This document shows, piece by piece, positions 1 to 22,938 of a stretch of DNA of 32,886 nt (position 1 is its first letter; the number at the start of each line of letters is the position of its first letter). The position numbers and the translations under genes were made by a program. The stretch comes from Candidatus Avelusimicrobium gallicola (lineage in GTDB: Bacteria > Elusimicrobiota > Elusimicrobia > Elusimicrobiales > UBA9959), in assembly GCA_020722185.1 (NCBI GenBank), contig DYLH01000016.1, positions 1 through 32,886 of the forward strand. Direction: 5' to 3'. A model generated the notes under the pieces. The model did not search any database, was not told where the DNA came from, and worked only from the letters and a program-made list of their open reading frames with translations.

Positions 1-27
1 AGGGAACCATAAAAAAGGATGGAAAAT

Positions 28-4717: not shown

Positions 4718-4731
4718 GGAAAGGCGGAAAT

Positions 4732-5528: not shown

Positions 5529-5529
5529 A

Positions 5530-5856: not shown

Positions 5857-5862
5857 CAAAAA

Positions 5863-6321
5863 ATGAAAATAAAAGAAAAAATAATACTCTGGTCCAGGCT
5901 TAAATCTCCATGGATACTTCATTTCAACACCGGCGCTTGCAATGGATGCGATATAGAAATAGTAGACGCATTAACTCCAAAATACGATGTGGAAAGATTT
6001 GGCCTTGTGCTTAAAGCCACTCCAAGGCACGCCGATGTCCTTGTGGTCAGTGGACCTGTGACAAGACAGCAGGCTAAAAGATTGAAAAGGATATATGAGC
6101 AGATGCCAGAACCGAAGTTTGTGCTGGCTGTTGGCGCATGCGCATGTTCTGGCGGTGTTTTTGACGGATGTTATAGCGTGCTTGGCGGGCTGGACAAAAT
6201 AATCCCGGTTTCTGCATACATTCCTGGCTGTCCTGTCAGGCCAGAAGCCATAATAGACGGAGTTGTTAAGCTCATAGGCGCTTTAGAATCTGGAGCCAAA
6301 AAAGAGATTGAAGCTAAATAG
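5863..6321 (+). CDS. Group 4 [NiFe]-hydrogenase small subunit (NuoB-like)
   Basis: This is the peripheral electron-transfer subunit that carries the proximal [4Fe-4S] cluster next to the NiFe site. Likely ligands are Cys26 and Cys29 in GACNGCDIEIVDAL, Cys93 or Cys95 in GACACSGGVF, and Cys123 in PGCPVRPE. The CxxC spacing is that of group 4 hydrogenases; complex I NuoB has adjacent cysteines instead. The 152-aa length is typical of group 4 small subunits and lacks the C-terminal half of standard uptake-hydrogenase small subunits. No Tat signal is present, so it should face the cytoplasm. AGGTGA precedes the ATG. Confidence 0.95.
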   Translation: MKIKEKIILWSRLKSPWILHFNTGACNGCDIEIVDALTPKYDVERFGLVLKATPRHADVLVVSGPVTRQQAKRLKRIYEQMPEPKFVLAVGACACSGGVFDGCYSVLGGLDKIIPVSAYIPGCPVRPEAIIDGVVKLIGALESGAKKEIEAK

Positions 6322-6336
6322 CTGGCTGGAGGACAC

Positions 6337-6825
6337 ATGTCTGAAACTTTAAAAGAAGAAGAATTAAAAAAAGAACTTGAAAATAAGTTTGCTGGATCTA
6401 TTTATGAAATTCAAATTGCAAGAAAGAATAGGATGTGGATATCTGTTAATCCCCAAGATGCTTTGCGACTCATGTCTTTTCTAAAAGAAAAAGGATACTT
6501 TCATCTCTCCACCATAACGGGTTTTGATGAAGGGGAGAATCTCGGCGCCATTTATCACATAACAGATTACTACACAATAGTAAATGTGAGAGTTAGAACA
6601 CCCAAGACTTCTCCATCGCTTAAAACAGTACGAGATATTTATCCTGTGTGTGAATCTTTTGAAAGAGAGCTTGAAGATCTTTTCGGTATAAAAATAGAAG
6701 GCCTTCCGGAAGGCAGGAATTATCCTCTGCCCGAAGGCTTTCCCAAAGGAGTTCATCCATTGAGAAAAGAAGTAAAACTTGACGAGCTGGTAAAACAGCT
6801 AGATTCCCAAAAGGAGGGAAAGTAA
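6337..6825 (+). CDS. NuoC-like (30-kDa type) hydrogenase subunit
   Basis: This 162-aa soluble subunit belongs to the NuoC/HycE-N/EchD family and packs on the large subunit. The family signature is visible: DIYPVCESFERELEDLFGI followed by the GLPEGRNYPLPEGFP and HPLRKEV segments, matching the usual W/YxxxERExxDMFGI...PLRK pattern. The N-terminal half (LSTITGFDEGENLGAIYHI) is the common NuoC lead-in. NuoC and NuoD are separate genes here, unlike fused HycE/HyfG. GGAGGA ahead of ATG 6337 supports the start. There is one base between its stop and the large-subunit start. Confidence 0.92.
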   Translation: MSETLKEEELKKELENKFAGSIYEIQIARKNRMWISVNPQDALRLMSFLKEKGYFHLSTITGFDEGENLGAIYHITDYYTIVNVRVRTPKTSPSLKTVRDIYPVCESFERELEDLFGIKIEGLPEGRNYPLPEGFPKGVHPLRKEVKLDELVKQLDSQKEGK

Positions 6826-6826
6826 T

Positions 6827-8020
6827 ATGGCAAAAATAACTATACCCCTTGGGCCTCAACATCCGGCATTAAAGGAACCAGAAAATTTTATGCTGGTGCT
6901 CGATGGAGAGCAAATTTGTGATGCGACAGTAAATCTTGGTTATAATCACCGCGGGATTGAAAAAGCGGCTGAAAACAGAAACTATATACAGGACATATAC
7001 CTACTGGAGAGAATTTGTGGTATTTGTTCACACTCTCATGTGAGCTGTTATATAGGATGTGTGGAAGAAATAGCAAAAGTGGAAGTGCCTCAAAGGGCGA
7101 AAGCCATAAGGACATTGGTTGCTGAGCTTGAAAGGATTCATAGCCACTTGCTCTGGCTTGGCGTTGCCGCTTATGAAATGGGATTTGAAACAATGTTTAT
7201 GTACACATGGCGAGACCGAGAACAGGTGCTTGATTGTCTTGAAATGCTAAGCGGAAATAGGGTTCACTATGGAATAAACACCCTAGGTGGAGTCAGACGT
7301 GATATCAATGCACAACAGGCCAAAGAGATAATTAAAAAGATAAACTACTTAGAGGAAAGGACAAAATACTATGTAAATCTGGCCACTGAAGAACCTACCG
7401 TATTGGCCAGAACTCAAAATGTGGGGAAATTGCCTTACAAAGTAGCGCTAGAAAGAAATGCTCTTGGCCCCACAGCCAGAGCCAGCGGTGTAAAAATGGA
7501 TGTAAGGAAGCAAGAGCCATATTTCATATATGACAAGCTGGATTTTGAGATGATCACTTATGACAGCGAAGATGTGTTTGGGAGGGTGGTCGTAAGGGTT
7601 CTAGAACTTGTCGAGTCGTATAAAATAATAAAGCAAGTGCTTTCAGCTCTTCCAGAGGGTGCGATATCTGTAAAGGTTCCATGGAAAATACCAGCCGGAG
7701 AATCTGTATTCAGATATGAAGCGCCTAGAGGCGAGGATATACATTATGTTAAATCAAATGGAAGCGAGATCCCAGAGAGGGTAAAAGTGAGAGCCCCTAC
7801 TCTTTCTAATTTTCAGTCAATACCCTATATGTTAAAGGGAGATTATCTGGCTGATGTGCCGATAACCATAGCTGCCATAGACCCATGTATGTCTTGCACT
7901 GATAGAGCCGTGGTCTATGATGCTAAAAATGGCAAAACCAGAACTTTTGACTGGGAAGAACTCAGAAAATATTCAATAGAGTTTTACAAAAAAAAGGGAG
8001 TGAATTTCTCGACAAAATAG
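6827..8020 (+). CDS. Group 4 [NiFe]-hydrogenase large (catalytic) subunit precursor
   Basis: This is the catalytic subunit for H+/H2 interconversion. Both nickel-binding motifs are intact: Cys64 and Cys67 in ERICGICSHSH, and Cys354 and Cys357 in DPCMSCTDR. NuoD of complex I has lost these cysteines, so this should bind NiFe(CN)2CO. After Arg360 a 37-residue tail follows (AVVYDAKNGKTRTF onward, with RKYSIE) that resembles the C-terminal extension removed from E. coli HycE by the endopeptidase HycI. It is therefore likely made as a precursor. No hyp maturation genes or endopeptidase gene are in the window, so these must lie elsewhere. AGGAGG precedes ATG 6827. Length (397 aa) is normal for a NuoD-type group 4 subunit without a fused NuoC domain. 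Confidence 0.96.
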   Translation: MAKITIPLGPQHPALKEPENFMLVLDGEQICDATVNLGYNHRGIEKAAENRNYIQDIYLLERICGICSHSHVSCYIGCVEEIAKVEVPQRAKAIRTLVAELERIHSHLLWLGVAAYEMGFETMFMYTWRDREQVLDCLEMLSGNRVHYGINTLGGVRRDINAQQAKEIIKKINYLEERTKYYVNLATEEPTVLARTQNVGKLPYKVALERNALGPTARASGVKMDVRKQEPYFIYDKLDFEMITYDSEDVFGRVVVRVLELVESYKIIKQVLSALPEGAISVKVPWKIPAGESVFRYEAPRGEDIHYVKSNGSEIPERVKVRAPTLSNFQSIPYMLKGDYLADVPITIAAIDPCMSCTDRAVVYDAKNGKTRTFDWEELRKYSIEFYKKKGVNFSTK

Positions 8021-8029
8021 GAGAAAAAA

Positions 8030-8974
8030 ATGGAGATGATTACAGCTTTAGTTTACATAGCCATATTTCCAGGCTTTTTCTTTCTGGCAGTATATGGCAC
8101 TGCACTTCAATGGGCAGACAGAAAGATATGCGCAGTAATGCAAAATAGAGTTGGGCCGCCATGGTATCAGACTCTGGCAGACTTTATAAAATTGGCGTCC
8201 AAAGAGGTGATAATACCAGATGGCGCGGATGTGAAAATGTTTAAAGCTCTGCCATATATCGCTGTGGCGGCTGTGATAACAGCAATGCTATTCATCCCCA
8301 TCACTTCTAGTCCCATTTATTCATTTCAAGGAGATATGATAGCTGTGGTATATCTTCTAACTATTCCAACAGCCACTTTTTTCCTTGCTGGCTGGTCTTC
8401 CACAAGTCCCTATGCTAGCTTTGGTTCTATGAGAGTTATGACTCAATTGTTTGGCTATGAGGTTCCCATGCTCCTGTCTCTAGTAGGGCCAGCCATACTT
8501 GCCGGATCATGGTCCATATATGACATATCCGCTTATTTTTCCACAAATCCCAAAATGCTGTTTTTTCAGATTATAGGGTTTATAGTTTCGCTTCTTTCTG
8601 TTCAAGGCAAACTTGAAAGAGTCCCTTTTGACACTCCACACGCGAAGAATGAAATAGTTGGAGGTCAATTTACTGAATATTCTGGCATTCTTCTTGGCCT
8701 TTTCAATCTCTCTATAGATATGGAAATGGTAGTATGCGCCGCTTTAATAAATGCTATTTTCCTTGGCGGAAGTTGGCAATTGGGCGGGTGGGCATCTATT
8801 GTTCTTTTCCTGATAAAAACTTTCGCAATAGTTTTTCTTTTTACTGCCATCAAAGCGATGATGGCCCGAGTTAGAATAGATCAAATGGTAAAGTTCTGCT
8901 GGAAATATCTTGCTCCGCTTGCCATGATTCAGATAATAGTAGACATTTGCCTTAAATACACATTACTGAAATAA
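8030..8974 (+). CDS. NuoH/HyfC-like membrane subunit of group 4 hydrogenase
   Basis: This 314-aa membrane protein connects the catalytic module to the pumping arm. Family features visible are DRKICAVMQNRVGPPWYQTLADFIKL after the first helix, and the cytoplasmic acidic loop ERVPFDTPHAKNEIVGGQFTEYSG, which matches the NuoH loop ExxRxPFDxPEAExELVAG with some substitutions. About eight hydrophobic helices are visible. AGGAG at 8019-8023, 6 nt before ATG 8030, supports this start over the next Met at 8036. Confidence 0.94.
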   Translation: MEMITALVYIAIFPGFFFLAVYGTALQWADRKICAVMQNRVGPPWYQTLADFIKLASKEVIIPDGADVKMFKALPYIAVAAVITAMLFIPITSSPIYSFQGDMIAVVYLLTIPTATFFLAGWSSTSPYASFGSMRVMTQLFGYEVPMLLSLVGPAILAGSWSIYDISAYFSTNPKMLFFQIIGFIVSLLSVQGKLERVPFDTPHAKNEIVGGQFTEYSGILLGLFNLSIDMEMVVCAALINAIFLGGSWQLGGWASIVLFLIKTFAIVFLFTAIKAMMARVRIDQMVKFCWKYLAPLAMIQIIVDICLKYTLLK

Positions 8975-8982
8975 GAGGAAAT

Positions 8983-9387
8983 ATGAAAAGAAAACCAATG
9001 AGAATTTTACCTGAAGCGCTGAAACAGCTTTTCAAGAAACCTGCTACAAGCAAGTATCCATTTGAAAAAGCTAAGCTTTATGCGGGATACAGAGCCAGAA
9101 TAAATTTTGAAGTGGAAAAATGTATAGGTTGTAAAATGTGTATGAGAGTTTGTCCATCCAAAGCTATAGAAATAATACCTGCGGAAAATCAACCTCAGCC
9201 TCAAATCGGGCCTGACGGCAAGCCTATGCCAGTAAAAAAAATATTTAACTGTATAATGAATCTTGACAGATGTATTTACTGCGCGCAATGCGTTGAGATA
9301 TGTCCCAAGAAAGCCCTGGCCTATACTCAGGATTTTGAACTGGCTCAGATAGAAAAGAAAAAACTTAGACTGCATTATAAGAACTAG
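8983..9387 (+). CDS. Two-[4Fe-4S] ferredoxin-like hydrogenase subunit (NuoI-like)
   Basis: This 134-aa soluble electron-transfer subunit has two ferredoxin motifs, CIGCKMCMRVCP (Cys47, 50, 53, 57) and CIYCAQCVEICP (Cys97, 100, 103, 107), which should hold two [4Fe-4S] clusters passing electrons between the NuoB-like subunit and an external carrier, probably ferredoxin. No NuoE/F/G NADH module follows, so direct NADH use is not indicated. A further Cys90 lies before the second motif. AGAGGA before ATG 8983 is the ribosome-binding site. This is the last gene of the hydrogenase operon: a 127-bp gap and a new promoter-like sequence follow. Confidence 0.94.
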   Translation: MKRKPMRILPEALKQLFKKPATSKYPFEKAKLYAGYRARINFEVEKCIGCKMCMRVCPSKAIEIIPAENQPQPQIGPDGKPMPVKKIFNCIMNLDRCIYCAQCVEICPKKALAYTQDFELAQIEKKKLRLHYKN

Positions 9388-10617: not shown

Positions 10618-11880
10618 ATGAAAACTACTAAACTTTTATTTTCTGTTTTTTTTATTATATCTCTAAGTTCTTTCTCATTCTGTTCGCCGAAATATACGGG
10701 AAATTCTAAAACCGTATCGGCTATAGAATTGAAGAATTTTAGAGCGCTTGACTTTCCATATGACAAAGGGGAATCAGGCCTGCTTACATGGGAAAATACT
10801 TCAGATATAATGGATGCAGAGTTTACGGTGTATGTTTCCACTCTATCAGACAATAGCGGTTGGATTAAGGTCACTTCCTTTAAGTCCGGGGAAAGCACCG
10901 CAGAAAAGATAAATTTGCCTTTTTGGTCTTTTGAGAAAGATAAGAAAATTTACGCTGTTCCACTGGAATTTAACAATATACTCTCATCTGAGATAAAAGA
11001 GCCGCTTTCTTATTACGCAAAAGTGGAAGTTTTAAAAAGCGGTAAAAAATATGAAACTTCAGTCCTTTCATCTAGAATAGAGGGGAACTGGTTCAGGGCG
11101 GATAGACTCAACAATTTACTATTTTTCCTTGTAGTCTCAGCGGTTTTCTTTATCGCAGTGTCTCATGCCAAGAAAAAAGGCCTTTTTATCAGAAGAATAG
11201 CTGGCCTTGACGCCATAGATGAAGCCATAGGCCGCGCCACTGAGATGGGGAAACCGATATTTTATGTGCCCGGTATCGGAGCAATGTCTCAGATCTCAAC
11301 GATAGCATCTACCTTTGTGCTTGGAGAAGTATCTAAGAAAGTAGCGCAATACGATTCATACATAAAAGTCCCTCACTATGATCCAATAGTGATGACTGTA
11401 TCTAAAGAAATAGTGAAACAGGCCTATACAGAAGCTGAAAGGCCCGACTCTTATAAAGAGGATATAAATGTCTTTATTAGCTCAGATCAGTTCTCCTATG
11501 CAGCCAATGTGGACGGAATGATAAGCAGAGAAAAACCAGCGGCTTGTTTCTATATAGGATACTTCATGGCTGAATCTCTTCTTTTGGCTGAAGTTGGCGC
11601 TTCTACGGGCGCTATACAGATAGCAGGCACAGATGTAGATCATCAATTGCCTTTCTTTTTCACAGCCTGCGACTACACTCTGATAGGAGAAGAGCTTTAT
11701 GCAGCTGGGGCATATCTTTCAAGAGAGCCTATGCTTGTAAGCGCCTTAAAAGTTCAGGACTTTGGAAAGCTAATTTTTATGGTTTCCGTAACTATTTTTT
11801 CTATACTGCTTTTAATTGGCGACAAACTAAACTGGGATGGATTGAGTCAAATCCTTACCGATCTATTGAAGGTGTATTAA
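10618..11880 (+). CDS. DUF6754-like exported membrane protein, function unknown
   Basis: This 420-aa protein resembles what I recall as the DUF6754 family; that attribution is from memory and needs a profile search. A signal peptide covers about 1-22 (LLFSVFFIISLSSFSFC). An extracytoplasmic beta-rich, fibronectin-III-like region of about 35-160 follows (LLTWENTSD, YYAKVEVLKSG). Next come a TM helix near 165-182, a conserved-looking soluble domain of about 195-370, and a final TM near 382-400. The soluble domain has striking small-residue motifs: FYVPGIGAMSQISTIAS, then EVGASTGAIQIAGTDVDHQLPFF. It begins a four-gene cassette with 1-9 nt gaps. No enzymatic motif is recognised. It could be a sensor, scaffold or transporter subunit; I do not assign a function. 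Confidence 0.75.
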   Translation: MKTTKLLFSVFFIISLSSFSFCSPKYTGNSKTVSAIELKNFRALDFPYDKGESGLLTWENTSDIMDAEFTVYVSTLSDNSGWIKVTSFKSGESTAEKINLPFWSFEKDKKIYAVPLEFNNILSSEIKEPLSYYAKVEVLKSGKKYETSVLSSRIEGNWFRADRLNNLLFFLVVSAVFFIAVSHAKKKGLFIRRIAGLDAIDEAIGRATEMGKPIFYVPGIGAMSQISTIASTFVLGEVSKKVAQYDSYIKVPHYDPIVMTVSKEIVKQAYTEAERPDSYKEDINVFISSDQFSYAANVDGMISREKPAACFYIGYFMAESLLLAEVGASTGAIQIAGTDVDHQLPFFFTACDYTLIGEELYAAGAYLSREPMLVSALKVQDFGKLIFMVSVTIFSILLLIGDKLNWDGLSQILTDLLKVY

Positions 11881-11881
11881 T

Positions 11882-12553
11882 ATGAAACTATTTAAAAAAC
11901 AGATCCCGCTTGCCATAGTATTTGTCTTCGGCCTCGTTACATTGGCCTCATACTATGTTCCACATAGAACTTCGGAAGAATATCTAGATGTAATGAACTC
12001 ATGGGAAAATATAGTATCAGCTTTTGGCTTTTTTTTAGGACTAATAAGCTTATTCTACGCTCACTATAACAAAATAAAACGCAAAGTTGATGGGTGGGGA
12101 TATAGTCTATTTGTCTACATTGGATTTTTGCTTATGGTCATCCCGGCCGTATATAGCAATGGCAAGCAGATAAATCCAGATGCCTCCATCACATGGCTTG
12201 GATGGGCATACAGATACATATATAATCCTCTGCAAGCCACGATGTTTTCAATACTCGCCTTTTACATAATATCCACTGCATATAGATCTTTCAGGATAAA
12301 ATCTCTTCAAGCTTTTGTCCTTTTTGTGGCAGCATTTATCCTTATCTTGGGGAGAATACCTGTGGGTCAGATGATATGGGATCAGCTGTTTGGATTTACC
12401 AAAGTTACAACTGGACAGGCTATAGACTGGGTGATAGGAGTGCCATCTACAGCAGGCAAGAGAGGCATAATGATAGGAGTGGCCATAGGCGCTATAGTAA
12501 CCTCTCTTAAAATAATTTTTGGAATAGAAAGACAATACATGGGGAAGGATTAA
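11882..12553 (+). CDS. Uncharacterised polytopic membrane protein of the DUF6754 cassette
   Basis: This 223-aa protein with about six hydrophobic helices (near 10-27, 42-60, 73-91, 118-133, 143-158 and 193-212) is of unknown function. Short polar loops carry YYVPHRTSEEY and GWAYRYIYNPLQ. The region before the last helix reads IDWVIGVPSTAGKRGIMIGVAIGAI, which is rich in Gly and might pack against partner helices. AAGGTG lies just before ATG 11882. The stop is 1 nt from the next start, so co-translation with the DUF6754-like and 12555 proteins is likely. I recognise no family. Confidence 0.8.
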   Translation: MKLFKKQIPLAIVFVFGLVTLASYYVPHRTSEEYLDVMNSWENIVSAFGFFLGLISLFYAHYNKIKRKVDGWGYSLFVYIGFLLMVIPAVYSNGKQINPDASITWLGWAYRYIYNPLQATMFSILAFYIISTAYRSFRIKSLQAFVLFVAAFILILGRIPVGQMIWDQLFGFTKVTTGQAIDWVIGVPSTAGKRGIMIGVAIGAIVTSLKIIFGIERQYMGKD

Positions 12554-12554
12554 T

Positions 12555-13370
12555 ATGAAAGAGATAATGCATAAACTTCTTAAAATAGACAGAAGGTATT
12601 TATTTGTTCTACTGACCTTATCTATTCTTATACCTATAATAAAACCGCTGGGTCTACCCAATAAATCAATATCGAAAGATGTACAGAATTTATATAATTT
12701 CATAGATAATTTGCCGGCTGGCTCTACCATAATATGTTCGCTTGATTATGACCCCTCCACAGCCCCGGAACTTCATCCTCAAGCCACAGCTATAGTAAAA
12801 CATGCTTTCAAGAAGAATATAAAGGTAATAGTTGTGACTTTTATTCCAGGGTCTACTGGACTTATAGATGAACTTTTTGAGAAAATACCTCAACAATATG
12901 GGAAAAAGTACGGAGAAGATTATGTAATTTTCCCATATATGGCCAATATAGTGGCAGTCCTAACACAGATGAATTCAAACATATACTCCATCTATGACAA
13001 AGACAAGGATGGTAAAGATCTCAAAAGCATGCCTATTATGAAGGGAATCAATAATTACAAGAATATCAGTGGAATTGTGAATATCACAGGCACAGCCATA
13101 TTAGATATCTGGGTAGCTTATGTAGGGGATAAATTTGGAGTGCCGGTTTTAGGCGGTGTTACGGCAATAAGCCAGGTCGGATATGGGCCATACCTTCAAA
13201 AAGGGCAAATTAAAGGTTTGCTCGGTGGAATGAAAGGCGCGGCGGAGTATGAAACTCTTATCAATGAACCGGGCAAAGGCACAAGTGGGATAGACGCGCT
13301 AAATGTGGCGCATTTGCTTGTCCTTGCTCTCATAATAATGTCAAATCTGATTTTAGTGATTTTCAAATAA
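12555..13370 (+). CDS. Uncharacterised protein with a domain between two TM helices (DUF6754 cassette)
   Basis: This 271-aa protein has one hydrophobic helix at each end (about 16-34 and 250-269) flanking a roughly 210-residue soluble domain. The domain looks alpha/beta: alternating hydrophobic strands and helices (STIICSLDYDPSTAPELHP, KVIVVTFIPGSTGLIDELF) followed by a Gly-rich segment (GVPVLGGVTAISQVGYGPYL, then GLLGGMKGAAEYE). The layout, a soluble domain between two TM helices with a Gly-rich end, parallels the C-terminal half of the DUF6754-like protein; distant homology between the two is a guess. GGAAGGA precedes ATG 12555. The function is unknown. Confidence 0.8.
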   Translation: MKEIMHKLLKIDRRYLFVLLTLSILIPIIKPLGLPNKSISKDVQNLYNFIDNLPAGSTIICSLDYDPSTAPELHPQATAIVKHAFKKNIKVIVVTFIPGSTGLIDELFEKIPQQYGKKYGEDYVIFPYMANIVAVLTQMNSNIYSIYDKDKDGKDLKSMPIMKGINNYKNISGIVNITGTAILDIWVAYVGDKFGVPVLGGVTAISQVGYGPYLQKGQIKGLLGGMKGAAEYETLINEPGKGTSGIDALNVAHLLVLALIIMSNLILVIFK

Positions 13371-13379
13371 GGAGAAATT

Positions 13380-14117
13380 ATGTCAGAAGGAATGATAATT
13401 TTTGGAGCATGGGTTGCGGCAGCTCTTACTTTATTTTTATTCAGCTTTCTTTACAAGGACAATCCCTTCTTTAAAGTAGCTGAACATCTATTCATAGGCG
13501 CTGGAATGGGATGGTATTTTCAAACCGTGTACTACAAAATAATGGTGCCCAAAATTCTGGAACCGCTTAACAGTGGAACAGGGTTTGAAATAGCTATGGT
13601 TATTATTCCCTCTATCCTTGGGCTTTCTCTTATAACTCAGTTCATACCTAAAATCTCATGGATATCTCGCTATGGCTTTACATTCCTAATGGGATACTCA
13701 GCCGGTATGGCAATACCTGTGGGGCTCGCCACAGATTTTATGAATCAGGTACTTGGCACTATAGAGCCTTTTGCAAATTTCTTTTCCTTAAGCGGATTTG
13801 AAATGTTCAATGCTCTGATTATAGCAATAGGGACCGTATGCGTCTTATTCTATTTCTTCTTTTCAGTGGAGCATAAAGGTGTGGGGAAAAAGGTATCCAA
13901 TATAGGCATATATTTTCTTATGGTATACTTTGGAGCATCGTTTGGCAATACTGTAATGGCCAGATTTTCTCTGCTATATGGACGTTTTGACACTCTTGTC
14001 AATTACTCATCAGCCAAATATCTTTATGCCACAAGCTGGATAGCCGCGGGACTTACACTTTTCTTTGTGGCAGAAAAATTGGTAAAAACATTGACTAAAG
14101 CTGAATCCGCAGAATAA
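13380..14117 (+). CDS. Uncharacterised polytopic membrane protein ending the DUF6754 cassette
   Basis: This 245-aa protein with about six to seven hydrophobic helices is of unknown function. Notable segments are AEHLFIGAGMGWYFQTVYY near residue 33-51, and YFGASFGNTVMARFSLLYGR near 180-199, where small residues and a polar Asn-Thr lie inside a helix. Such features can line a substrate path but do not prove transport. AAGGAG lies 6-7 nt before ATG 13380. This is the last + strand gene before a convergent junction with the FAD oxidoreductase on the - strand. No convincing terminator is visible in the 38-bp gap. Confidence 0.8.
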   Translation: MSEGMIIFGAWVAAALTLFLFSFLYKDNPFFKVAEHLFIGAGMGWYFQTVYYKIMVPKILEPLNSGTGFEIAMVIIPSILGLSLITQFIPKISWISRYGFTFLMGYSAGMAIPVGLATDFMNQVLGTIEPFANFFSLSGFEMFNALIIAIGTVCVLFYFFFSVEHKGVGKKVSNIGIYFLMVYFGASFGNTVMARFSLLYGRFDTLVNYSSAKYLYATSWIAAGLTLFFVAEKLVKTLTKAESAE

Positions 14118-14155
14118 AAAGGCCGCGTAAAAGTCAATAAGCAGTTTCGGACCGA

Positions 14156-15562
14156 TTATTTAACATATCCTTTTTCAAAATAAGCCTGTTCGCTTCCTAT
14201 ATCGTCTAGATTATACTTTGGACTTTCAATTATGTTTGAGGCAGATAATAACCCCATTTCTATAGCGTGGTCCTGATTATTGTATTTAAAGGCTCCGCCT
14301 CGACCTGCCACCTGAAGATTTGAAAAAGAAGAGACAGCTTTTTTAACTATTTCAAGATTTTTCTTATAGTCAAGATCATATACAGGGTAGGCGAAACGCT
14401 CTCTGTGAACTTCGCGCATAAATATTTCTTCTCTTTTAAGGCTAAATATTTTATTTAGTCTGGGCAAGGCTAATTCAAGCAGTTTTTCTGAACTTGCTTG
14501 CCATACCTCATCGCCATACCAGCAGAAAAATTCAAGCAAAAGAGAAGTCTTTCCATCTTCACTCATGGCATGACTGAAATTCCTAGGCTCCATCATTCTT
14601 CCAAAAGGTATATAAGAATCAGGTAGATAAACCCATTGATCATTAAAAAGGGATTGTCTATCAATGGCAAGAAAAAGCGAGACATGGGATCTGTACTTAA
14701 GTTTTTCGGCAGATTCAAGGACTTTATTATCTAAGCTGGGGGTAATAATTTTAACAAGTTCTGTCAATGGCATGGTTGAAATAAAATTATCGGCCTCTAT
14801 GTCCATTTCACCTTCTTTTGACAAAACTCTGACAGCTTTTATTTTTCCACCTTCATGCCTTAGAGATACAGGGGAGGATTCCATAATTATACGAGAATTT
14901 AAAGATCTCTTAGCCATAGCTTCATATATCATCTTGGTCCCATATTTAGGATAATAAAACATATCCACAAGAGTTTTGGCTGAAGATCCCATATTTAAAG
15001 CTTTTTTAATCACTTCCAAAATAGACAAATCCTTTATTCTCTGAGTAGCCCAATCCGGAGATATTTTTGAACATGGCAAACCCCATATCTTCTCTGTATA
15101 ATTTAGCATATTCAACTCAGCCAGAGAGCGGCCAAAGTCGCTTATTATCTTGTCTTCAAAAGATTTTATCTTTCGTGGAGAAAAATTATTTTTAAGCTTT
15201 TCATATGCATAATCATAAATCACTGAGAGAGAACCTGAGAAACCAAGATTTTTCAATGTGTCCATTATATCAACTGGATACATAAAAAATTTGTCTCTTA
15301 TATAAAATCTGGTCAGCCGATTTACTGCTATCCAATCTGAACCCAATAAATCCTCTATCATATCATAGAGATATCTATTCTTGCTAAAAAATCTGTGCGG
15401 ACCTATATCAGTTCTGAACTTCCCAAATTGCAATGTTGACGATAATCCGCCTATGTAGGGATTTTTTTCAATAACTATTGAGGATGCGCCTTTTTTAGAA
15501 AGCTCAAAAGAAGCAGATATGCCACACGGACCGGCGCCTATTATAAGGGCGTCAGATTTCAT
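14156..15562 (-). CDS. FAD-dependent oxidoreductase, amine oxidase / UDP-galactopyranose mutase-like
   Basis: This 468-aa flavoprotein has an N-terminal dinucleotide-binding fold, IIGAGPCGISASFELSKKG at about 7-25 (GxGxxG). FAD-fold motifs IEKNPYIGGLSST and TDIGPHRFF follow. A C-terminal FAD motif is seen in LQVAGRGGAFKYNNQDHAIEMG. The combination resembles the protoporphyrinogen-oxidase-like and UDP-galactopyranose-mutase-like proteins often found in polysaccharide clusters. Its start overlaps the stop of the upstream glycosyltransferase by ATGA, so the two are coupled, which favours a role in glycan or lipid-linked sugar modification. The exact substrate cannot be called. Last gene of the - strand cluster. 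Confidence 0.85.
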   Translation of the reverse strand: MKSDALIIGAGPCGISASFELSKKGASSIVIEKNPYIGGLSSTLQFGKFRTDIGPHRFFSKNRYLYDMIEDLLGSDWIAVNRLTRFYIRDKFFMYPVDIMDTLKNLGFSGSLSVIYDYAYEKLKNNFSPRKIKSFEDKIISDFGRSLAELNMLNYTEKIWGLPCSKISPDWATQRIKDLSILEVIKKALNMGSSAKTLVDMFYYPKYGTKMIYEAMAKRSLNSRIIMESSPVSLRHEGGKIKAVRVLSKEGEMDIEADNFISTMPLTELVKIITPSLDNKVLESAEKLKYRSHVSLFLAIDRQSLFNDQWVYLPDSYIPFGRMMEPRNFSHAMSEDGKTSLLLEFFCWYGDEVWQASSEKLLELALPRLNKIFSLKREEIFMREVHRERFAYPVYDLDYKKNLEIVKKAVSSFSNLQVAGRGGAFKYNNQDHAIEMGLLSASNIIESPKYNLDDIGSEQAYFEKGYVK

Positions 15563-17706
15563 ATTTTTCTCCCTGAAGTTTTTAGATAAACATCTTTTAT
15601 ATAATTTACAAAACTTTTCTCATTTTTCTCAGTTATTTCATAAACTATCACTCTATTTACAATTTGGTCCTGAGCTTTTTCATCGTACACATATTCCTCT
15701 TTCATATGCTTGTAAAAAAACTTGTCGAATCTCTCCATCGATTTATCGTCAAAATAAAGAATACCATAAACAGCATTATTTCTCATAGCTTCTTTAATAT
15801 TGAAAATAATCCTCTTTATTCCAAGCTTTTTTAGCCTGAGATATATCTCCTCTTCGTCTCTGGAATCAATACATATGTCTATGAGAGTATTTCTATCAAA
15901 TACACTTGAAGCATCAAAAGGTTTCTCAAAATAAAGTGTTTTTGAATCACCTAAAAATAGAGTTCTTTCTTTGTCTTTTGATACTTCCTTGATATGATTA
16001 AACACACCATAGGATGGCCATGGATACCTGCCTCTAGAAGAAGAGAGATAGTCTGAGGCAGAGATAATTCCAAAAAAAACTTTCCACTTAGCTTCCATAT
16101 AAAAGAACAGAAATGACCAGTACAAGGAAAGAATTGTAGTAAGTAAAACCAAAAATTTCACCGCCTTGCCAAAAAGTCCTTCGAAAGATTCAAAAGCGTA
16201 AAATGAAACAAGCAAGGCTCCAGCAAACCATGCTGGCATTAAATACCTTACCACATTACTTGAAAAAGACCACATAAGCCATGAGGATACGAAATATATC
16301 ATTAAAGGTTTGACAATGGGATTTTCTTTTTTGCTAAAAAAGGCCAATGGCAATACAATTAAAAATATAGGAGTGAAGTACTCATCATTTGCTATTTTTC
16401 CGGCGGATACATAAAGTGGATGTATCAGCCAATCTTTTAAATTAAAGTTAAACTGCTTTACTTCACTCATAAAGGATTCTATATGAGAAACATCCAAAGG
16501 AGCAAGCCCTTTCTGAAACACCTTATAAAGCATAGGATAAAAAGGATTGCCATATTGAATAAAATTTTTCACAAGCCATGGCAGAACAGGTAAAGAGGCA
16601 GCTATTGAAAAAATGACCGTAAATTTTAGAAAAGAACGCAAATTGGGTCTGAGCGTATATAAAAGTGAGATAAGCATTGCAAATACAAATATCGCGGATG
16701 TATATTTTATTCCCATCGCAAAACCTGCGGCCAGACCAGAAATAATAGCGTATTTAAACGACAAAGTTTCACTATATCTTAAGGAGAGATAAAATGAGCA
16801 CAGTAGAAAAAAAGAAAGCATAACATCATTTGAAGCATACCATGAGACGTTCATATAATGAAATATGCTAAAAAAAACAGCTGCGGCCACAAAAAGAGTT
16901 TTTTTAGAAAACCTCTCCTTAAAGAAAGCAAAAAAAGAAAAAAGGGTAAAGAGTGAAATTCCCCAGTTTACAAGCTTGGCTGATTGAACCGATCCGGTTT
17001 GAAGGCAATAAAGATAAACTAAACCATGGTTAAATGGCATTTTAGAAAATATGAGGTTTGGCATATCCTTTATCGCTCCCTCTATTTTCCAATAATTAGG
17101 CACGGCTAAGTGATAGATTATTGTGTCATAAAAAGTTTCGGGGGAAAGAGACTGTATCAAATTTAGAACGACTATAACAGAGAGAAAGAGCCAAAAAAGG
17201 GGGAAATCAACAAAAAAAATATCTTTATACTGACTTATCTTTTTTCTTTCAGTGTAGAGAGATAAAATGGAAATAGCAAAACCTAAAAACGCAAAAAAGA
17301 TAAACGCTTCTTTTATCAAAAAGCCAGAAATTCCTGCAATAGCGGAAAAAATAGCAGTTATAATAAGTCCCAGAGATAAAGAAATAATGGATGAAGAGAA
17401 ATGCGATTCCTCTAATTTAATAAATCTCGTAGCCAGATATCCCCAACCAAATATGCCAAGAAAAGAAAATAAACCTTTGATTGACAACAAGGCATTCACA
17501 TACATCGCTTTGAAAATTCCTGAGGATATATACTGGTATGGAGAGACAGCGACAATTAAGAAATCAATGTCTGGTTTAAATTTTGAAAAATACTCTTTCA
17601 AAACCAGAAAAGAAAGAATAAGCAGAATAGACCATGCAAATAAGGAAACAGCCGGCTTTTGAACAGCCGGCCTCTTTTCCTGTTTCTTTTTGTTTTTATT
17701 AGACAC
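15559..17706 (-). CDS. GT-C (family 39-like) integral membrane glycosyltransferase
   Basis: This 715-aa polytopic protein has about twelve hydrophobic helices and a soluble C-terminal domain (about 560-715). The first large extracytoplasmic loop carries ETFYDTIIYHLAVPNYWKIEG, a pattern of the GT39/ArnT/PMT-like superfamily that moves sugars from polyprenyl-phosphate donors on the outer face of the membrane. The GxxxGMKYT-like segment GLAAGFAMGIKYTSAIF is also typical. The start is GTG (complement of CAC at 17704-17706), 8 nt after the upstream stop, with no clear Shine-Dalgarno, so it is less certain than most. The N-terminus is very Lys-rich before the first helix. Acceptor and sugar are unknown. 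Confidence 0.85.
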   Translation of the reverse strand: MSNKNKKKQEKRPAVQKPAVSLFAWSILLILSFLVLKEYFSKFKPDIDFLIVAVSPYQYISSGIFKAMYVNALLSIKGLFSFLGIFGWGYLATRFIKLEESHFSSSIISLSLGLIITAIFSAIAGISGFLIKEAFIFFAFLGFAISILSLYTERKKISQYKDIFFVDFPLFWLFLSVIVVLNLIQSLSPETFYDTIIYHLAVPNYWKIEGAIKDMPNLIFSKMPFNHGLVYLYCLQTGSVQSAKLVNWGISLFTLFSFFAFFKERFSKKTLFVAAAVFFSIFHYMNVSWYASNDVMLSFFLLCSFYLSLRYSETLSFKYAIISGLAAGFAMGIKYTSAIFVFAMLISLLYTLRPNLRSFLKFTVIFSIAASLPVLPWLVKNFIQYGNPFYPMLYKVFQKGLAPLDVSHIESFMSEVKQFNFNLKDWLIHPLYVSAGKIANDEYFTPIFLIVLPLAFFSKKENPIVKPLMIYFVSSWLMWSFSSNVVRYLMPAWFAGALLVSFYAFESFEGLFGKAVKFLVLLTTILSLYWSFLFFYMEAKWKVFFGIISASDYLSSSRGRYPWPSYGVFNHIKEVSKDKERTLFLGDSKTLYFEKPFDASSVFDRNTLIDICIDSRDEEEIYLRLKKLGIKRIIFNIKEAMRNNAVYGILYFDDKSMERFDKFFYKHMKEEYVYDEKAQDQIVNRVIVYEITEKNEKSFVNYIKDVYLKTSGRKI

Positions 17707-17714
17707 CGTAAAGA

Positions 17715-18842
17715 TTATTTTTCAATTATTTCAACATTGGCTCTTGGAATGACTATTTTACTTCCATTCTCAAGCTTAACTTCCAGAACCCTTACATTAC
17801 TTTCAGTGGCAATGGCCTGTAATTCAGATGGCAATTGAGTAACTGTTCCTATTATTCCAAAATGAGGCTCTCTTATTATTCTAACTTGATCGCCAACCTC
17901 TATCCAACCGCGAGATTCTTCTTTCTTCTTTACATCAGATCCTGGAGCGCCAGGTATTATTATCTCTGGACGCATAACGCCAGCTCTTATCTGAGTTGCC
18001 CCCGACACAGAGGCCTTTTCACCTTCCCTTGACTTGAGCAATTTGAAAGTATAATCAGACATAGGTATGTGACCAAAACCCTCTGTTACAATAAGAGTAA
18101 TGCCTATTTTCTCCGTTCCAGTTACTGCAACGCCAATATCATATCCAAGTATCTCTCTTAAATCCTTGTCGTGTATTCCACCAACAACAACGGCGCTTGC
18201 CCCAACTTTTATCGCCTTTTTAATTGACTCAAGTCCGGCATGCCTGCCACCAACAATAACTTTGCCTCTGTATTCTTCCTTTATATCTTCTGGTTTCAAG
18301 TCCACATCAGGAGAATCAACGGCAACTTTTATTTCACCATTTACTTCTCCGCCAATGCCGAAAATACCTTGAATAAATGTCCCATCAGCCTCAATCACCA
18401 CGCCAAAATTTTCTTCCACTTCAACAATTTTTCCCTTGATATAAGCATGCAAGGGCAATATTTTTGGCGGCTCCCTAAAAAGCACCTGTCCCGTTATTTC
18501 AGAGATTGACTCCACAGTTCCCGTTATAGGAGAAGAAATAGATGATTTAAGAAAAGACAGTCCCAGAAAAGGTTTTGTCTCAGCTATTACCTCGTCCTTC
18601 TTGACCTGATCGCCTTCTTTCTTGAGCATATAATTTCTTATTTCAGAAGGTTCAATGCCAAGCCTGTTTACCACATTTACAGAAAAAACCTTACCAGGCA
18701 ATTCTGTCTGCGCCACTGTGTCAAGAGCGTCTACTTCCTTTCCTTTCTCATAGAGAACCTTTCCGGGAATGGGAAGCATTCTTTTTTTTCTCAAAGTAAT
18801 AAAAGGCACAACTTTAAGTCCAGGTGAATAAGCGTGAGCCAT
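17715..18842 (-). CDS. Unknown protein with barrel-sandwich region and C-terminal KOW-like domain
   Basis: This 375-aa soluble protein has no signal peptide or TM helix. Residues about 24-125 look like a split barrel-sandwich (biotinyl-lipoyl/RnfC/RpoB type): LKKEGDQVKKDEVIAETK and then SPITGTVESISEITGQV form the two halves. Residues about 190-290 (GRHAGLESIKKAIKVGASAVVVGGIHDKDL, then GTEKIGITLIVTEGFGHIPM) look like an alpha/beta core. Residues about 311-375 (WIEVGDQVRIIREPHFGIIGTV, ending VIPRANVEII) look KOW- or SH3-like. GGAGG lies before the ATG. It is downstream of the GlmL-like ATPase in the same direction, separated by 176 bp with hairpins. I know no function. An RnfC-like redox role is unlikely because no cysteine motifs are present. 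Confidence 0.8.
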   Translation of the reverse strand: MAHAYSPGLKVVPFITLRKKRMLPIPGKVLYEKGKEVDALDTVAQTELPGKVFSVNVVNRLGIEPSEIRNYMLKKEGDQVKKDEVIAETKPFLGLSFLKSSISSPITGTVESISEITGQVLFREPPKILPLHAYIKGKIVEVEENFGVVIEADGTFIQGIFGIGGEVNGEIKVAVDSPDVDLKPEDIKEEYRGKVIVGGRHAGLESIKKAIKVGASAVVVGGIHDKDLREILGYDIGVAVTGTEKIGITLIVTEGFGHIPMSDYTFKLLKSREGEKASVSGATQIRAGVMRPEIIIPGAPGSDVKKKEESRGWIEVGDQVRIIREPHFGIIGTVTQLPSELQAIATESNVRVLEVKLENGSKIVIPRANVEIIEK

Positions 18843-18888
18843 AATTTTCCTCCGATATTTTCTTAGTCATTCGACCATACACACAAAC

Positions 18889-18950
18889 ACCTGTCAAAGA
18901 CAGGTCTTGTATTTTGCCACTCTTTAAGTGTCGTTCGGTGTCTGAACCGA
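18889..18950 (-). promoter_or_regulatory. Three consecutive hairpins between the GlmL-like and KOW-protein genes
   Basis: The 176-bp gap at 18843-19018 contains a perfect 7-bp hairpin (ACCTGTC 18889-18895, GACAGGT 18899-18905, 3-nt loop), a 4-bp one (CACT 18918-18921, AGTG 18927-18930), and a 5-bp one (TCGGT 18935-18939, ACCGA 18946-18950). This is the only sizeable gap in the - strand cluster. It could be an attenuator, RNA-processing site or weak terminator. There is no proper U-tract, so a strong terminator is unlikely. Confidence 0.35.
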
Positions 18951-19018
18951 TCATTTAATTGTACATCCTCTTCTTATTTTTTCCTTAATCTCTTATTCCA
19001 CTATCCTCTGACTTTTGA

Positions 19019-20806
19019 TCAAGGGTACATATTCAATTTTTTATACCACTTCTCAAGCGATTCCACCCTCTTGCCTTCAGTTTTTGGCAATTCAAGAGGA
19101 CGTCCTCTGCCATCAAAAATAACTCCAACAGTTCCGCCTTGTATTTTAGCCTCATACCTTGATCCCTTGCCCGCGCCGACATCAAAACTTTTAGCGGGCT
19201 TAAGAATTACTTCAGCATTCTCATCGCTTAAAGGGACAATAAATATCTCGCCAAAACGCAATTCTCCGCTTTGATTTCCGCTTTGAGCTTTTATTTCCCA
19301 ATCAAGTATTTTTTCTCCTTCTTTGGCAAGACCTTTTGGAGCAATGTTGGTCCCAAGTTTTATCAAACAATCATTGTAAAAAACATCCAGCGAGGCTTTT
19401 TCATTTATCTGAGCCAAAACACCAAGATGAGGCATCATAAAAATAGAATCAACAGCCAGCATCGTAACACCTTCCAGCTGATATGCGTCTATCATCATAA
19501 GCGCGGATTGTATTCTCCTTGGTGAGTGAGCAAGAATTCCACCCGAACCTATCACGTAATTTAGACTCATCATGTTTATCAAACTCTGTCCGCTTGATGT
19601 CTGATCAAAGGCATCAGATATGGATCTTTCTTGTTGAACGCCTTTCAATCCAACGGCCAAAGCCTTGTGCTGAGCCAGAGCAAGTCTCAATGCCTCTCTT
19701 GCCACAGCATGTTCAACCTGTAAATCCTCCTGAGTCTGAGGAATAGTCGTAGGTCTAATCATCTTATTTTTCAATCTATTTCTGACTTCTTGATCTTCTA
19801 TTTTGAAAGGCAACCACCTCATTATATTTTGGACACCAGCTTCAGCCATCACATTGGAAACCGAATAACTCATGCCTAGATTTGCGCTAACAGTTCTATT
19901 AAAAATTTCACTAAAGACAGAGAATACATCAGTAGTGGCTCCTCCTATATCAACAGCAAGCACATTGTAATTGTTTGCCCTTGCAAATTTTTCAGTCATA
20001 AGGCCCACAGCGGCGGGAGTTGGCATTATCGGAGCTCCCACCATCTTCATTAACTTTGGATACCCCGGAGCCTGTTGCATAACATGCTCAAGAAATATAT
20101 CGTGTATTTTGTGCCTAGCTGGCATTAGATTTTCTCTCTCAAGCACCGGCCTTAGATTCTCTGTTATTACAAGAGCAGTTTTTGAACCAAGTATATCGTT
20201 TATCTCTTTATGGGCTTTGTTGTTTCCCGCATATATCACAGGAAGTTTATAAGAAGCGCCAAGTCTGGGTTTTGGATCAGCGGCTCTTATAAAGTTTGCC
20301 AATTCAACAACATGATTTACCGTACCACCATCCGTTCCACCAGAAAGAAGTACCATGTCTGGGCGAAGCTGCCTTATTCTTTCTATTTTCTCATGATCTG
20401 CTCTTCCATCATTTGAAGCTAAAACGTCCATTACTATAGCGCCAGCGCCAAGCGCGCATCTCTGAGCGGATTCACCAGTCATAGCTTTGACAGCTCCAGC
20501 AACCATCATCTGAAGTCCACCGCCAGCTGAGCTGGTCGAGACATAAACGTCAACGCCGGTATTTCCATTATTTGGCGTTATAACTTTTTCTCCATCAAGT
20601 ATCTTCCTGCCAGAAAGTTCTTCAACTTCAGTTATGGCATTGAGAACCCCTCTTGTTACATCTTCAAAAGGCGCTTCCACAGTGGTGGGAGCTTCTCCTC
20701 TGAAAGTCTGCCTGTATGTATCTCCTTTCTTTTCTATCAAAATGGCCTTCGTGGTTGTACTTCCACAGTCTGTAGCTATTATGACATTAAGGTCCTTGTC
20801 TTGCAT
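19019..20806 (-). CDS. MutL/GlmL-family ASKHA ATPase with extra C-terminal domain
   Basis: This 595-aa protein belongs to the family annotated as glutamate mutase L / MutL, an actin-Hsp70-type ATPase fold. Phosphate-1 motif TDCGSTTTK is at 12-20, SGGTDGG at 155-161, phosphate-2 AVDIGGATTDVF at 284-295, and the adenosine motif VIGSGGILAHSP at 418-429. Classical GlmL from glutamate-fermenting clostridia is about 460 aa. Here roughly 105 more residues (490-595) form a beta-rich extension ending GGTVGVIFDGRGRPLELP. No MutS/MutE or other B12 mutase gene is present nearby, so reactivation of glutamate mutase is not supported by context. AAGGAG lies 7 nt before the ATG. The likely role is an ATP-driven chaperone or switch for the neighbouring unknown proteins; this is inference. 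Confidence 0.88.
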   Translation of the reverse strand: MQDKDLNVIIATDCGSTTTKAILIEKKGDTYRQTFRGEAPTTVEAPFEDVTRGVLNAITEVEELSGRKILDGEKVITPNNGNTGVDVYVSTSSAGGGLQMMVAGAVKAMTGESAQRCALGAGAIVMDVLASNDGRADHEKIERIRQLRPDMVLLSGGTDGGTVNHVVELANFIRAADPKPRLGASYKLPVIYAGNNKAHKEINDILGSKTALVITENLRPVLERENLMPARHKIHDIFLEHVMQQAPGYPKLMKMVGAPIMPTPAAVGLMTEKFARANNYNVLAVDIGGATTDVFSVFSEIFNRTVSANLGMSYSVSNVMAEAGVQNIMRWLPFKIEDQEVRNRLKNKMIRPTTIPQTQEDLQVEHAVAREALRLALAQHKALAVGLKGVQQERSISDAFDQTSSGQSLINMMSLNYVIGSGGILAHSPRRIQSALMMIDAYQLEGVTMLAVDSIFMMPHLGVLAQINEKASLDVFYNDCLIKLGTNIAPKGLAKEGEKILDWEIKAQSGNQSGELRFGEIFIVPLSDENAEVILKPAKSFDVGAGKGSRYEAKIQGGTVGVIFDGRGRPLELPKTEGKRVESLEKWYKKLNMYP

Positions 20807-20821
20807 AGGCTCTCCTTTTAT

Positions 20822-21106
20822 CTAAATGTTCTCCTTAAAAAAATCAAAAGCAGATGGATTTTGAAGCAAATCGGCAAGTCTTTGAATGTCTTCCTTTGAA
20901 AAAATCATATTCAAAAAAGGCATACCGAAAATCACGGCTTGGGAAGTTAGGTTGTGTAGGGGCAATGTAGCATCAACTGCCATAGCGGCCAAATGAGAAA
21001 GATTTCTCCTCTTTATAAGCGCGCAGGCTTTGAGTATAAAATCTTTATCCTGCTGACTAATAGGTGTTTTGCCCGGTATCTTGAAAGCATTTTTCCATAT
21101 TCCCAT
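20822..21106 (-). CDS. Small uncharacterised protein upstream of the GlmL-like ATPase
   Basis: This 94-aa soluble, mostly helical protein is of unknown function. Near residues 31-60 lies KRRNLSHLAAMAVDATLPLHNLTSQ, followed by a moderately hydrophobic stretch AVIFGMPFLNMIF and an acidic C-terminus. It has no cysteines in pairs, so metal-cluster binding is unlikely. It is the first gene of the - strand cluster, 15 bp upstream of the GlmL-like gene. Its ATG is preceded 6 nt earlier by TAAAAT and not by a Shine-Dalgarno. The position suggests it acts with the GlmL-like and KOW proteins. Confidence 0.7.
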   Translation of the reverse strand: MGIWKNAFKIPGKTPISQQDKDFILKACALIKRRNLSHLAAMAVDATLPLHNLTSQAVIFGMPFLNMIFSKEDIQRLADLLQNPSAFDFFKENI

Positions 21107-21143: not shown

Positions 21144-21172
21144 TTGAAAGATTCAAAAAGTGGATGTATACT
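21144..21172 (+). promoter_or_regulatory. Near-consensus sigma-70-type promoter
   Basis: TTGAAA (21144-21149) and TATACT (21167-21172) are separated by exactly 17 nt. This is the best housekeeping-type promoter I see in the window. Transcription would begin near 21179 and read the ASH-domain gene at GTG 21223. A 5-bp hairpin (CCGCT 21182-21186, AGCGG 21199-21203) would lie at the very 5' end of the RNA. Confidence 0.72.
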
Positions 21173-21222
21173 ATGATTTGACCGCTTTTTTAATTTTTAG
21201 CGGCAAAAAGAGGGGAAATTTT

Positions 21223-22938
21223 GTGTTTAAAAAAGAAAATAATAATTTTTCAAAACCAGCGATTTTTTTGGCTACTATCGTGATTGTTTCAGCAGCGCTT
21301 TTTATAACAGTAAAGAGTTTATTTTCAGAAAGAAGCGCTCATGTGATTTCAGATTCTAATGGAAAACATTCATTTTTTGAAAAAGAGGGAGAGAGCAAAC
21401 TTTTTGCCTCATCAATATCTCCATCTCAGCGCTCTGACTCTATATCTATCCTACTAAAAGCGAATGAGGGATATGCTTCTTCGGCAATAAAATCTGATTC
21501 AAATAGAATACAAGAAAAATTGCCATCCGCAATGAAAGATACATCCACAAGCGCTATTTCAGACTTTGAAAAACAGGCTCTAGCTGAATTGGGAGAAGCT
21601 GAAACTCCTCAAGAGGCAAAAAAAGATATAGGGGGAAGTAGCGCAAAATCAATAGAAAGTCTGGCTGAGGAGCAAAACATAGCCAACATAGGCGCTAGGA
21701 AAAATCAGAGCAGATCTAAAAGCTCTCTCTCAGGCAAAAAGTCAGCTTTTACAAGCCATCTTTCCGCTATAAACAATTTCAACAAACTGAGGATTGGGAA
21801 AAATTTTAAATCTCAGGGGGATAGTGGAGATATTTCACAGACCTTTGAACAGACTTCAAATGGCGCATATCTAAATTCTAATTTTAACTCATCAGGGAAT
21901 CTCGGATTAAACTCTTCAATGGGATCTCAAGGCAATTCAGGAAGCTACGCTTCATCAGACGCAAATACGGCATCGAATTCAGCTGGCAGAACTGATGAAG
22001 CAAATAAGCCCAAGCCAGACATCCCCAGACCACAAATGATGGTATACAAACAAGTTTATGATTTTGGAAATGTGAACCTCTACGAGTATGCTAGAAGACT
22101 TGTTACTGTAATGAATGTAGGGAAAAAGGATTTACGAATAGGTAGGATAAACAAGCTCAATTATGAAGATAATTCATTTTATGTGACTAAAAACAACTGC
22201 TCAAACAGGACATTGAAACCTGCCACAGAATGCACATTTCAGATAGTTTTCAGGCCATATCACAGCGGGACAGCATCTGACGGTTTTGAGATAGAAAGCA
22301 ATGATGCAGACAGAATTCCCTACTCCAATTATATAGAAGTTTCTGGAAAATCGTCATCCAGTCGTCCCCGTTATAACTCTTACTGGAATAGGACACCGTC
22401 GGAGAAATGGTGGTATACATGGTTGCATAGATATGAAGCCACAACAGAAATGGATTTTGGCACTGTTACATCTGGACATTCTCTGGAATTGAACTATTTA
22501 TTCGTAAGCGACGTACCAATTTACGGTCTACACTTTGTAAAGGACTCAAGTAGAAAAGAAAATTCGGCTTTTTCTGTTTCCTACACAAATTGTCCTGATA
22601 ATAAAGTAATAGGTCAGTGGCGTCCTTGTCTTGTGCGAATAAAATTCACTCCTACAGATAGTTTGTTAAAATATCTCTCTTCCAATTATGGCAAGTACTA
22701 TGCCGTAAATGGATACAATGGGAACAAGCAACTCATGGATAATCCAGTATATCCACCTAATGTAATAGACAGGCCCTTTGAACTGGAACTTAAAGGGTAT
22801 ATAAGAGCCAAAGCTAAGGTCAATTATTCATTAAACTCTACAACTGTCAGAACTATCCCATTGAGAGCATTCACAAGCTCGAGATATCCTAACCCTAGAC
22901 TAAAAAGAGTCGCGGAAGAAAATTTATATTCTTTTTAA
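21223..22938 (+). CDS. Membrane-anchored protein with Ser/Asn-rich linker and two ASH/choice-of-anchor-like domains
   Basis: This 571-aa protein has a short basic N-terminus and one TM helix (about 14-30), then a long Ser-, Asn- and Gln-rich low-complexity region to about residue 265. Two beta-sandwich domains follow. The first (about 270-365) has YDFGNVNLYEYARRLVTVMN, LKPATECTFQIVFRP and FEIESNDAD, typical of ASH or choice-of-anchor D Ig-like folds. The second begins MDFGTVTSGHSLELNYLF near 408 and has CLVRIKFTPTD. Paired cysteines in each domain may form disulfides outside the cytoplasm. GTG 21223 is chosen because GAGGGG lies 7 nt upstream and the promoter sits over the longer frame's ATG at 21160. 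It is likely a surface or periplasmic protein. Its role is unknown. Confidence 0.82.
   Translation: MFKKENNNFSKPAIFLATIVIVSAALFITVKSLFSERSAHVISDSNGKHSFFEKEGESKLFASSISPSQRSDSISILLKANEGYASSAIKSDSNRIQEKLPSAMKDTSTSAISDFEKQALAELGEAETPQEAKKDIGGSSAKSIESLAEEQNIANIGARKNQSRSKSSLSGKKSAFTSHLSAINNFNKLRIGKNFKSQGDSGDISQTFEQTSNGAYLNSNFNSSGNLGLNSSMGSQGNSGSYASSDANTASNSAGRTDEANKPKPDIPRPQMMVYKQVYDFGNVNLYEYARRLVTVMNVGKKDLRIGRINKLNYEDNSFYVTKNNCSNRTLKPATECTFQIVFRPYHSGTASDGFEIESNDADRIPYSNYIEVSGKSSSSRPRYNSYWNRTPSEKWWYTWLHRYEATTEMDFGTVTSGHSLELNYLFVSDVPIYGLHFVKDSSRKENSAFSVSYTNCPDNKVIGQWRPCLVRIKFTPTDSLLKYLSSNYGKYYAVNGYNGNKQLMDNPVYPPNVIDRPFELELKGYIRAKAKVNYSLNSTTVRTIPLRAFTSSRYPNPRLKRVAEENLYSF

Follow-up and report, generated by a model that had tools for sequence, protein, structure and literature searches.

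A predicted ATP-driven inner-membrane machine of seven proteins, with a GlmL-like ATPase, encoded in at least four bacterial phyla

The GlmL/MutL ATPase family is known from the repair of B12 enzymes, and annotated GlmL genes have glmS on one side and the gene for mutase E on the other. The actin-like proteins PilM, GspL and FtsA serve as nucleotide-bound scaffolds on the inner side of envelope complexes. Here we describe a locus in which a GlmL-like ATPase is encoded next to membrane proteins. The window, that is, the whole stretch of DNA analysed, covers 33 kb; the genome amounts to 1.6 Mb and is assembled in 60 contigs. The closest relatives of the window in a DUF6754 alignment scan of bacterial genomes are Elusimicrobia/Elusimicrobiales genomes from metagenomes. 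The unit has seven genes, S, MutL, KOW, A, B, C and D, and every open reading frame, those of two accessory genes included, was found at the following positions:

10618..11880, plus strand: A, DUF6754 protein, 420 aa (PF20539, 361 bits; structure model; hydropathy)
11882..12553, plus strand: B, membrane protein, 223 aa, about six transmembrane (TM) segments (hydropathy; kept beside A in four phyla)
12555..13370, plus strand: C, 271 aa, TM / Rossmann-like alpha-beta / TM (model with pLDDT 92, pTM 0.88)
13380..14117, plus strand: D, membrane protein, 245 aa, about seven TM segments (hydropathy; kept with A-B-C)
14156..15562, minus strand: OX, FAD-dependent oxidoreductase of the PRK07208 type, accessory (NF005548, 426 bits, cut-off 389)
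15559..17706, minus strand: GT, GT-C-like membrane glycosyltransferase, PMT_2, 715 aa, accessory (PF13231, 42 bits)
17715..18842, minus strand: KOW, soluble protein, 375 aa, barrel-sandwich hybrid with a C-terminal KOW motif, core (domain matches, co-occurrence)
19019..20806, minus strand: MutL, ASKHA ATPase family, 595 aa, core (PF13941, 417 bits; tree; motifs)
20822..21106, minus strand: S, small soluble protein, 94 aa, core (upstream of MutL in four phyla; alignment)

Adjacent genes of the A-B-C-D block are 1–9 bases apart on the plus strand, and by hydropathy all four encode membrane proteins, MutL, KOW and S being soluble. The original prediction, made from the window alone, had described four tightly packed plus-strand genes for membrane or exported proteins and a convergent minus-strand cluster of a small protein, an ASKHA ATPase and a KOW/sandwich protein, and both descriptions agree with the reading frames, positions and domains found. 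In the four-gene cassette, for which it recognised no function, B, C and D lack a family and A belongs to DUF6754 (PF20539), itself a family of unassigned function. The supposed pair of glycosyltransferases consists in fact of one GT-C-like membrane protein and one FAD-dependent oxidoreductase, and the list of six core proteins omitted the 94-aa S.

Several other features of the window may be mentioned. A 592-aa protein encoded at 21160-22938, divergently from S, has a hydrophobic N-terminus and a choice-of-anchor D / HYDIN-like Ig domain. The sole RNA gene found in the window is tRNA-Gly (CCC) at 31317-31387. At 19-9387 there is an operon of complex I-like subunits, including three of the antiporter type. 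As its 49-kDa homologue retains the CGIC and DPCMSC motifs, the operon appears to encode an energy-converting group 4 [NiFe]-hydrogenase, and it adjoins A-D in many or most Elusimicrobiota loci.

For comparison, 80 loci, sampled via DUF6754, were taken from the 498 relatives found by the alignment scan, and their genes were marked with seven protein profiles. The loci come from the Elusimicrobiota, Nitrospirota, Planctomycetota and Latescibacterota, plus a few records that name no phylum. All seven genes are present in 39 of the 80, on the same strand in every case (39 of 39) and in the order S-MutL-KOW-A-B-C-D in nearly all of them; most incomplete loci are truncated or have only A-B-C-D inside the fetched flank. 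This order recurs in four phyla, far above chance, and in each of them S lies upstream of MutL and B is a neighbour of A. Because all complete loci are co-directional, the convergent layout of the window is a local rearrangement, a derived form. Hence the facing clusters of the original prediction are real in the window, but the usual form in its relatives is one co-directional operon.

Fifteen related Elusimicrobiota genomes have the genes mostly co-directional; S-MutL-KOW usually comes first, followed by GT, sometimes with OX, and then by A-B-C-D. GT lies between KOW and A in many loci of this phylum. The order in G133, from another Elusimicrobiota family, is S-MutL-KOW-A-B-D-C. Among the loci examined, GT and OX accompany the set only in the Elusimicrobiota, and they are accessory, lineage-specific genes. 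The A-B-C-D block is duplicated in tandem in five loci (L020, L074, L094, L095, L105), with a single S-MutL-KOW beside the duplication in L020, L094 and, in part, L105. All extra neighbours in the fetched loci are lineage-specific, and none common to several phyla was found. In 18 loci, mostly or all from the Nitrospirota (L096, L098, L101, L106, L107 and L108 are examples), the gene directly after D codes for a Memo-like protein (PF01875) that has an additional N-terminal portion, and the Latescibacterota loci have a BpsA-like neighbour. Carriage of the set by phages or plasmids was rejected, as DUF6754 was not found in collections of phages, plasmids and viral contigs.

The presence of the genes was surveyed in 150 Elusimicrobiota, 296 Nitrospirota and 372 Planctomycetota genomes. 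In the Elusimicrobiota, 16 of 150 genomes have DUF6754 (A); KOW is present in 15 of these 16 and in no other genome, and MutL in 14 of 15 carriers, the genome of the window being excluded, versus none of the eight non-carriers tested. In the Nitrospirota, DUF6754, KOW and an above-cut-off MutL are each found in 79 of 296 genomes, and these are the same 79. In the Planctomycetota, DUF6754 is present in 101 genomes, any MutL in 106, and both in 94. Five genomes of this phylum have a system-type MutL with no DUF6754 detected; others of the MutL-only genomes carry different MutL proteins, which score low against the system clade. Fisher's test yields p-values of about 1e-19, 5e-74 and 3e-65 for the Elusimicrobiota, Nitrospirota and Planctomycetota, respectively, which ignore relatedness and so are not probabilities.

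A stronger argument is the co-occurrence of the modules where they are not linked. MutL and DUF6754 lie 0.25–2.9 Mb apart on the same contig in seven Planctomycetota genomes and on separate contigs in a further 31, where assembly breaks are possible for some. The point of the split differs: in G480, G735 and G820 MutL is elsewhere, with KOW still accompanying A, and in G669 and G576 S-MutL-KOW is separated from A-B-C-D. One genome, G129 (locus L034, 94% complete), has A-B-C-D without MutL or KOW, and its A is shortened, the Ig-like domain being missing; this is possibly a partial system or an assembly gap. Gaps in the assemblies may explain both this exception and the MutL-only Planctomycetota.

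It may be argued that S-MutL-KOW and A-B-C-D are two independent modules sharing only ancestry and location, since they are separable in position, a few genomes have one of them alone, and the co-occurrence counts are inflated by relatedness. We regard this as very unlikely: both modules are kept where they are unlinked, the operon breaks vary, leaving KOW beside A in some genomes, and the presence in the Nitrospirota matches exactly. Given the operon order kept in four phyla, the near all-or-none presence, the co-occurrence that survives unlinking, the varying break points and the duplication of A-B-C-D as a block, the seven genes are co-inherited, kept together even where the operon is split, and very probably form a single system. 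The original prediction had tied the ATPase/KOW cluster to the four-gene cassette and had set the comparison of homologue neighbourhoods across genomes as the test beforehand; in three phyla this comparison demonstrates co-occurrence and a conserved neighbourhood well beyond chance, also in genomes whose two halves are distant from each other.

The MutL protein of the window scores 417 bits against PF13941 (Pfam gathering cut-off 27). However, its scores against the GlmL-type models (NF040745, GlmL; NF040744, Or-4; TIGR01319) are all below the cut-offs: 231 versus 475 for GlmL, 209 versus 600 for Or-4, and 165 versus 204 for the GlmL family. The system proteins group as a single clade (support 100/100) in a tree built from 35 sequences, whose outside branches are long. 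The ASKHA ATP-binding motifs, which in the window protein read DCGSTTTK, DIGGATTD and GSGG, align with those of GlmL; the ATPase motifs are invariant across phyla. A C-terminal extension (residues ~480 to 595) is absent from GlmL. Judging by these sequence features, MutL is distinct from GlmL and belongs to a clade of its own. A profile search of solved structures with MutL gave nothing useful. Short MutL proteins (~470–490 aa) of a different clade were seen in two Planctomycetota clusters, L151 and L152; the enzymes encoded there are, by eye, PrpF-like and isocitrate-lyase-like and not B12 mutase-like.

Still, MutL is homologous to GlmL (PF13941), and a B12 aminomutase is present in the genome, so that MutL could be a GlmL-type reactivase for a mutase encoded elsewhere, its adjacency to membrane genes being incidental or indirect. 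Indeed, the original statement that no B12 mutase is encoded is correct for the window and incorrect for the genome, the sole clear B12 mutase of which, lysine 5,6-aminomutase, is on another contig. The genes at this site (L147, G000:C54:26000-42000, positions 2605-7428) encode the alpha and beta subunits, KamC and a KamB-like protein, then an aminotransferase and a thiolase. The aminomutase has reactivase genes of its own next to it, KamC and the KamB-like gene, the latter scoring under the curated cut-off. Further, MutL accompanies DUF6754 in every one of the 79 Nitrospirota carriers, and no mutase subunit gene is present in the operon in any phylum among the loci examined, whereas annotated GlmL genes are flanked by glmS and the gene for mutase E. 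Together with the scores, the separate clade and the added C-terminal part, this makes the reactivase identity of MutL improbable.

The KOW protein of the window produces weak matches to the RnfC/NqrA barrel-sandwich domain, below the cut-off, and to the KOW motif. Of 23 proteins of the family, 16 match RnfC_N and 11 match KOW, and NQRA_N matches occur as well; the C-terminal motif matches the KOW domains of SPT5 and uL24. The resemblance to RnfC and NqrA covers the barrel-sandwich part alone, as no full-length match including the redox part was found, and no named protein in the libraries searched matched the combination of barrel-sandwich and KOW domains. Lipoylation of KOW was rejected, since the lysine at the equivalent position is not conserved.

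The RnfC_N and NQRA_N matches raise the possibility that the complex is a redox device moving electrons, and the complex I/group 4 hydrogenase genes adjoining A-D in most Elusimicrobiota loci would agree with that. On the other hand, none of the core proteins matched a domain for an iron-sulfur cluster, flavin or haem, the hydrogenase neighbour was not seen in loci beyond the Elusimicrobiota, and barrel-sandwich domains are frequent in non-redox proteins. We therefore give this explanation very little credence.

The topology of the membrane proteins was derived from hydropathy, positive charges and structure models, not from a dedicated TM predictor, and the TM counts are approximate. A scores well above the gathering cut-off of PF20539 (361 bits versus 27) and has three hydrophobic segments. 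Together with its model, which is approximate (pLDDT 71, pTM 0.42), hydropathy and charges suggest the order signal/TM, Ig/Fn3-like domain outside, TM, alpha/beta DUF6754 domain in the cytosol, TM, with the DUF6754 domain placed in the cytosol by the positive-inside rule. Ig/Fn3 matches were obtained for the outer domain only; a match of the model to Nir2 was discarded (rmsd >30). C has two hydrophobic segments, and its model (pLDDT 92, pTM 0.88) shows a Rossmann-like alpha-beta domain, probably outside, with a TM segment on each side; no PDB match was found at E <= 0.001. The scan yields five strong segments of the approximately six in B and three of the approximately seven in D, the rest being assigned by eye from alignments. 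In both DUF6754 and C, numerous polar residues are invariant from phylum to phylum.

The original prediction held that A and C share an unusual plan. This was not upheld: C is TM / alpha-beta / TM, A differs, and a common domain was rejected with an hhalign probability of 0.2%, as was paralogy of B and D (0.4%). B, C, D and S have no convincing Pfam or NCBIfam family, S has no Pfam or PDB match, and a profile search of solved structures with A, B, C, D and S returned nothing useful. An anti-phage defence system was rejected, since none of the seven proteins has a significant PADLOC match, the weak one of C being to PbeC (14 bits). A literature search, most subscription journals lying outside it, produced no paper naming the DUF6754 family and, for the carrier phyla, no relevant work on glutamate mutase or GlmL.

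From the genes, we predict that the set probably makes up a complex in the inner membrane, equipped with an ATPase module in the cytosol and engaged in envelope work. The polytopic B and D would build the complex together with A and C, whose globular domains, anchored in the membrane, would sit on its opposite faces. S, MutL and KOW would form the cytosolic module, docking onto the DUF6754 domain of A. MutL would bind and hydrolyse ATP; motion of its ASKHA domain would be passed via the barrel-sandwich/KOW protein to the membrane complex, driving or resetting it. The Ig-like domain of A and the alpha/beta domain of C would be the parts by which the complex acts on the membrane or beyond it. 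This architecture agrees with our inference that the membrane complex is energised or assembled by the ATPase. The task would most likely be transport or assembly of an envelope component.

The presence of four membrane and three soluble proteins, the invariant ATPase motifs and the invariant polar residues of A and C argue for a machine. However, G129, having A-B-C-D alone, and the five MutL-only Planctomycetota genomes count against it, as does the fact that no neighbour common to the phyla reveals a substrate. On balance, we lean slightly towards a machine of seven proteins in the inner membrane, driven by ATP, self-contained and so far undescribed, with a GlmL-like ATPase, in at least four phyla. 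By analogy with PilM and its like, MutL might instead be a nucleotide-bound scaffold and not a motor, the set building or positioning an envelope structure. A cytosolic ASKHA protein is indeed encoded alongside membrane partners, and MutL has weak matches to MreB-like and ParM profiles (E ~0.01–0.04). But these actin-like matches are not significant, and among the members scanned no Pfam match of B, C or D to pilus, secretion or division families, PilN/O and GspM-like ones included, was found, so we consider a scaffold unlikely.

The seven-gene set so far has no name, assigned function or structure, and five of the seven proteins have no family or belong to one with no assigned function. Its conservation in the Elusimicrobiota, Nitrospirota (including Nitrospira), Planctomycetota and Latescibacterota means that it probably does something these bacteria need. 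If the machine is real, the GlmL/MutL ATPase family extends into membrane biology, and the set provides defined genes for probing the functions of the envelope in nitrifiers and planctomycetes of environmental importance.

Compared with known systems, A is a clear member of DUF6754 (PF20539), a family that carries no assigned function. KOW has a weak but recurrent resemblance to the barrel-sandwich domains of RnfC and NqrA, differing from them in having neither the iron-sulfur domain nor Rnf or Nqr partners, and an equally weak but recurrent likeness to the KOW domains of SPT5 and uL24. The general plan, a cytosolic ASKHA protein with membrane partners, is like that of PilM-N-O and GspL, although no homology was found to any membrane part of the set. 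MutL shares with the GlmL/MutL-type ATPases the ASKHA family PF13941 and the phosphate and adenosine motifs. It differs in its low identity to annotated GlmL (<30%), in its C-terminal extension and in its genomic setting: the system MutL is encoded among membrane proteins, whereas GlmL is encoded among mutase subunits.
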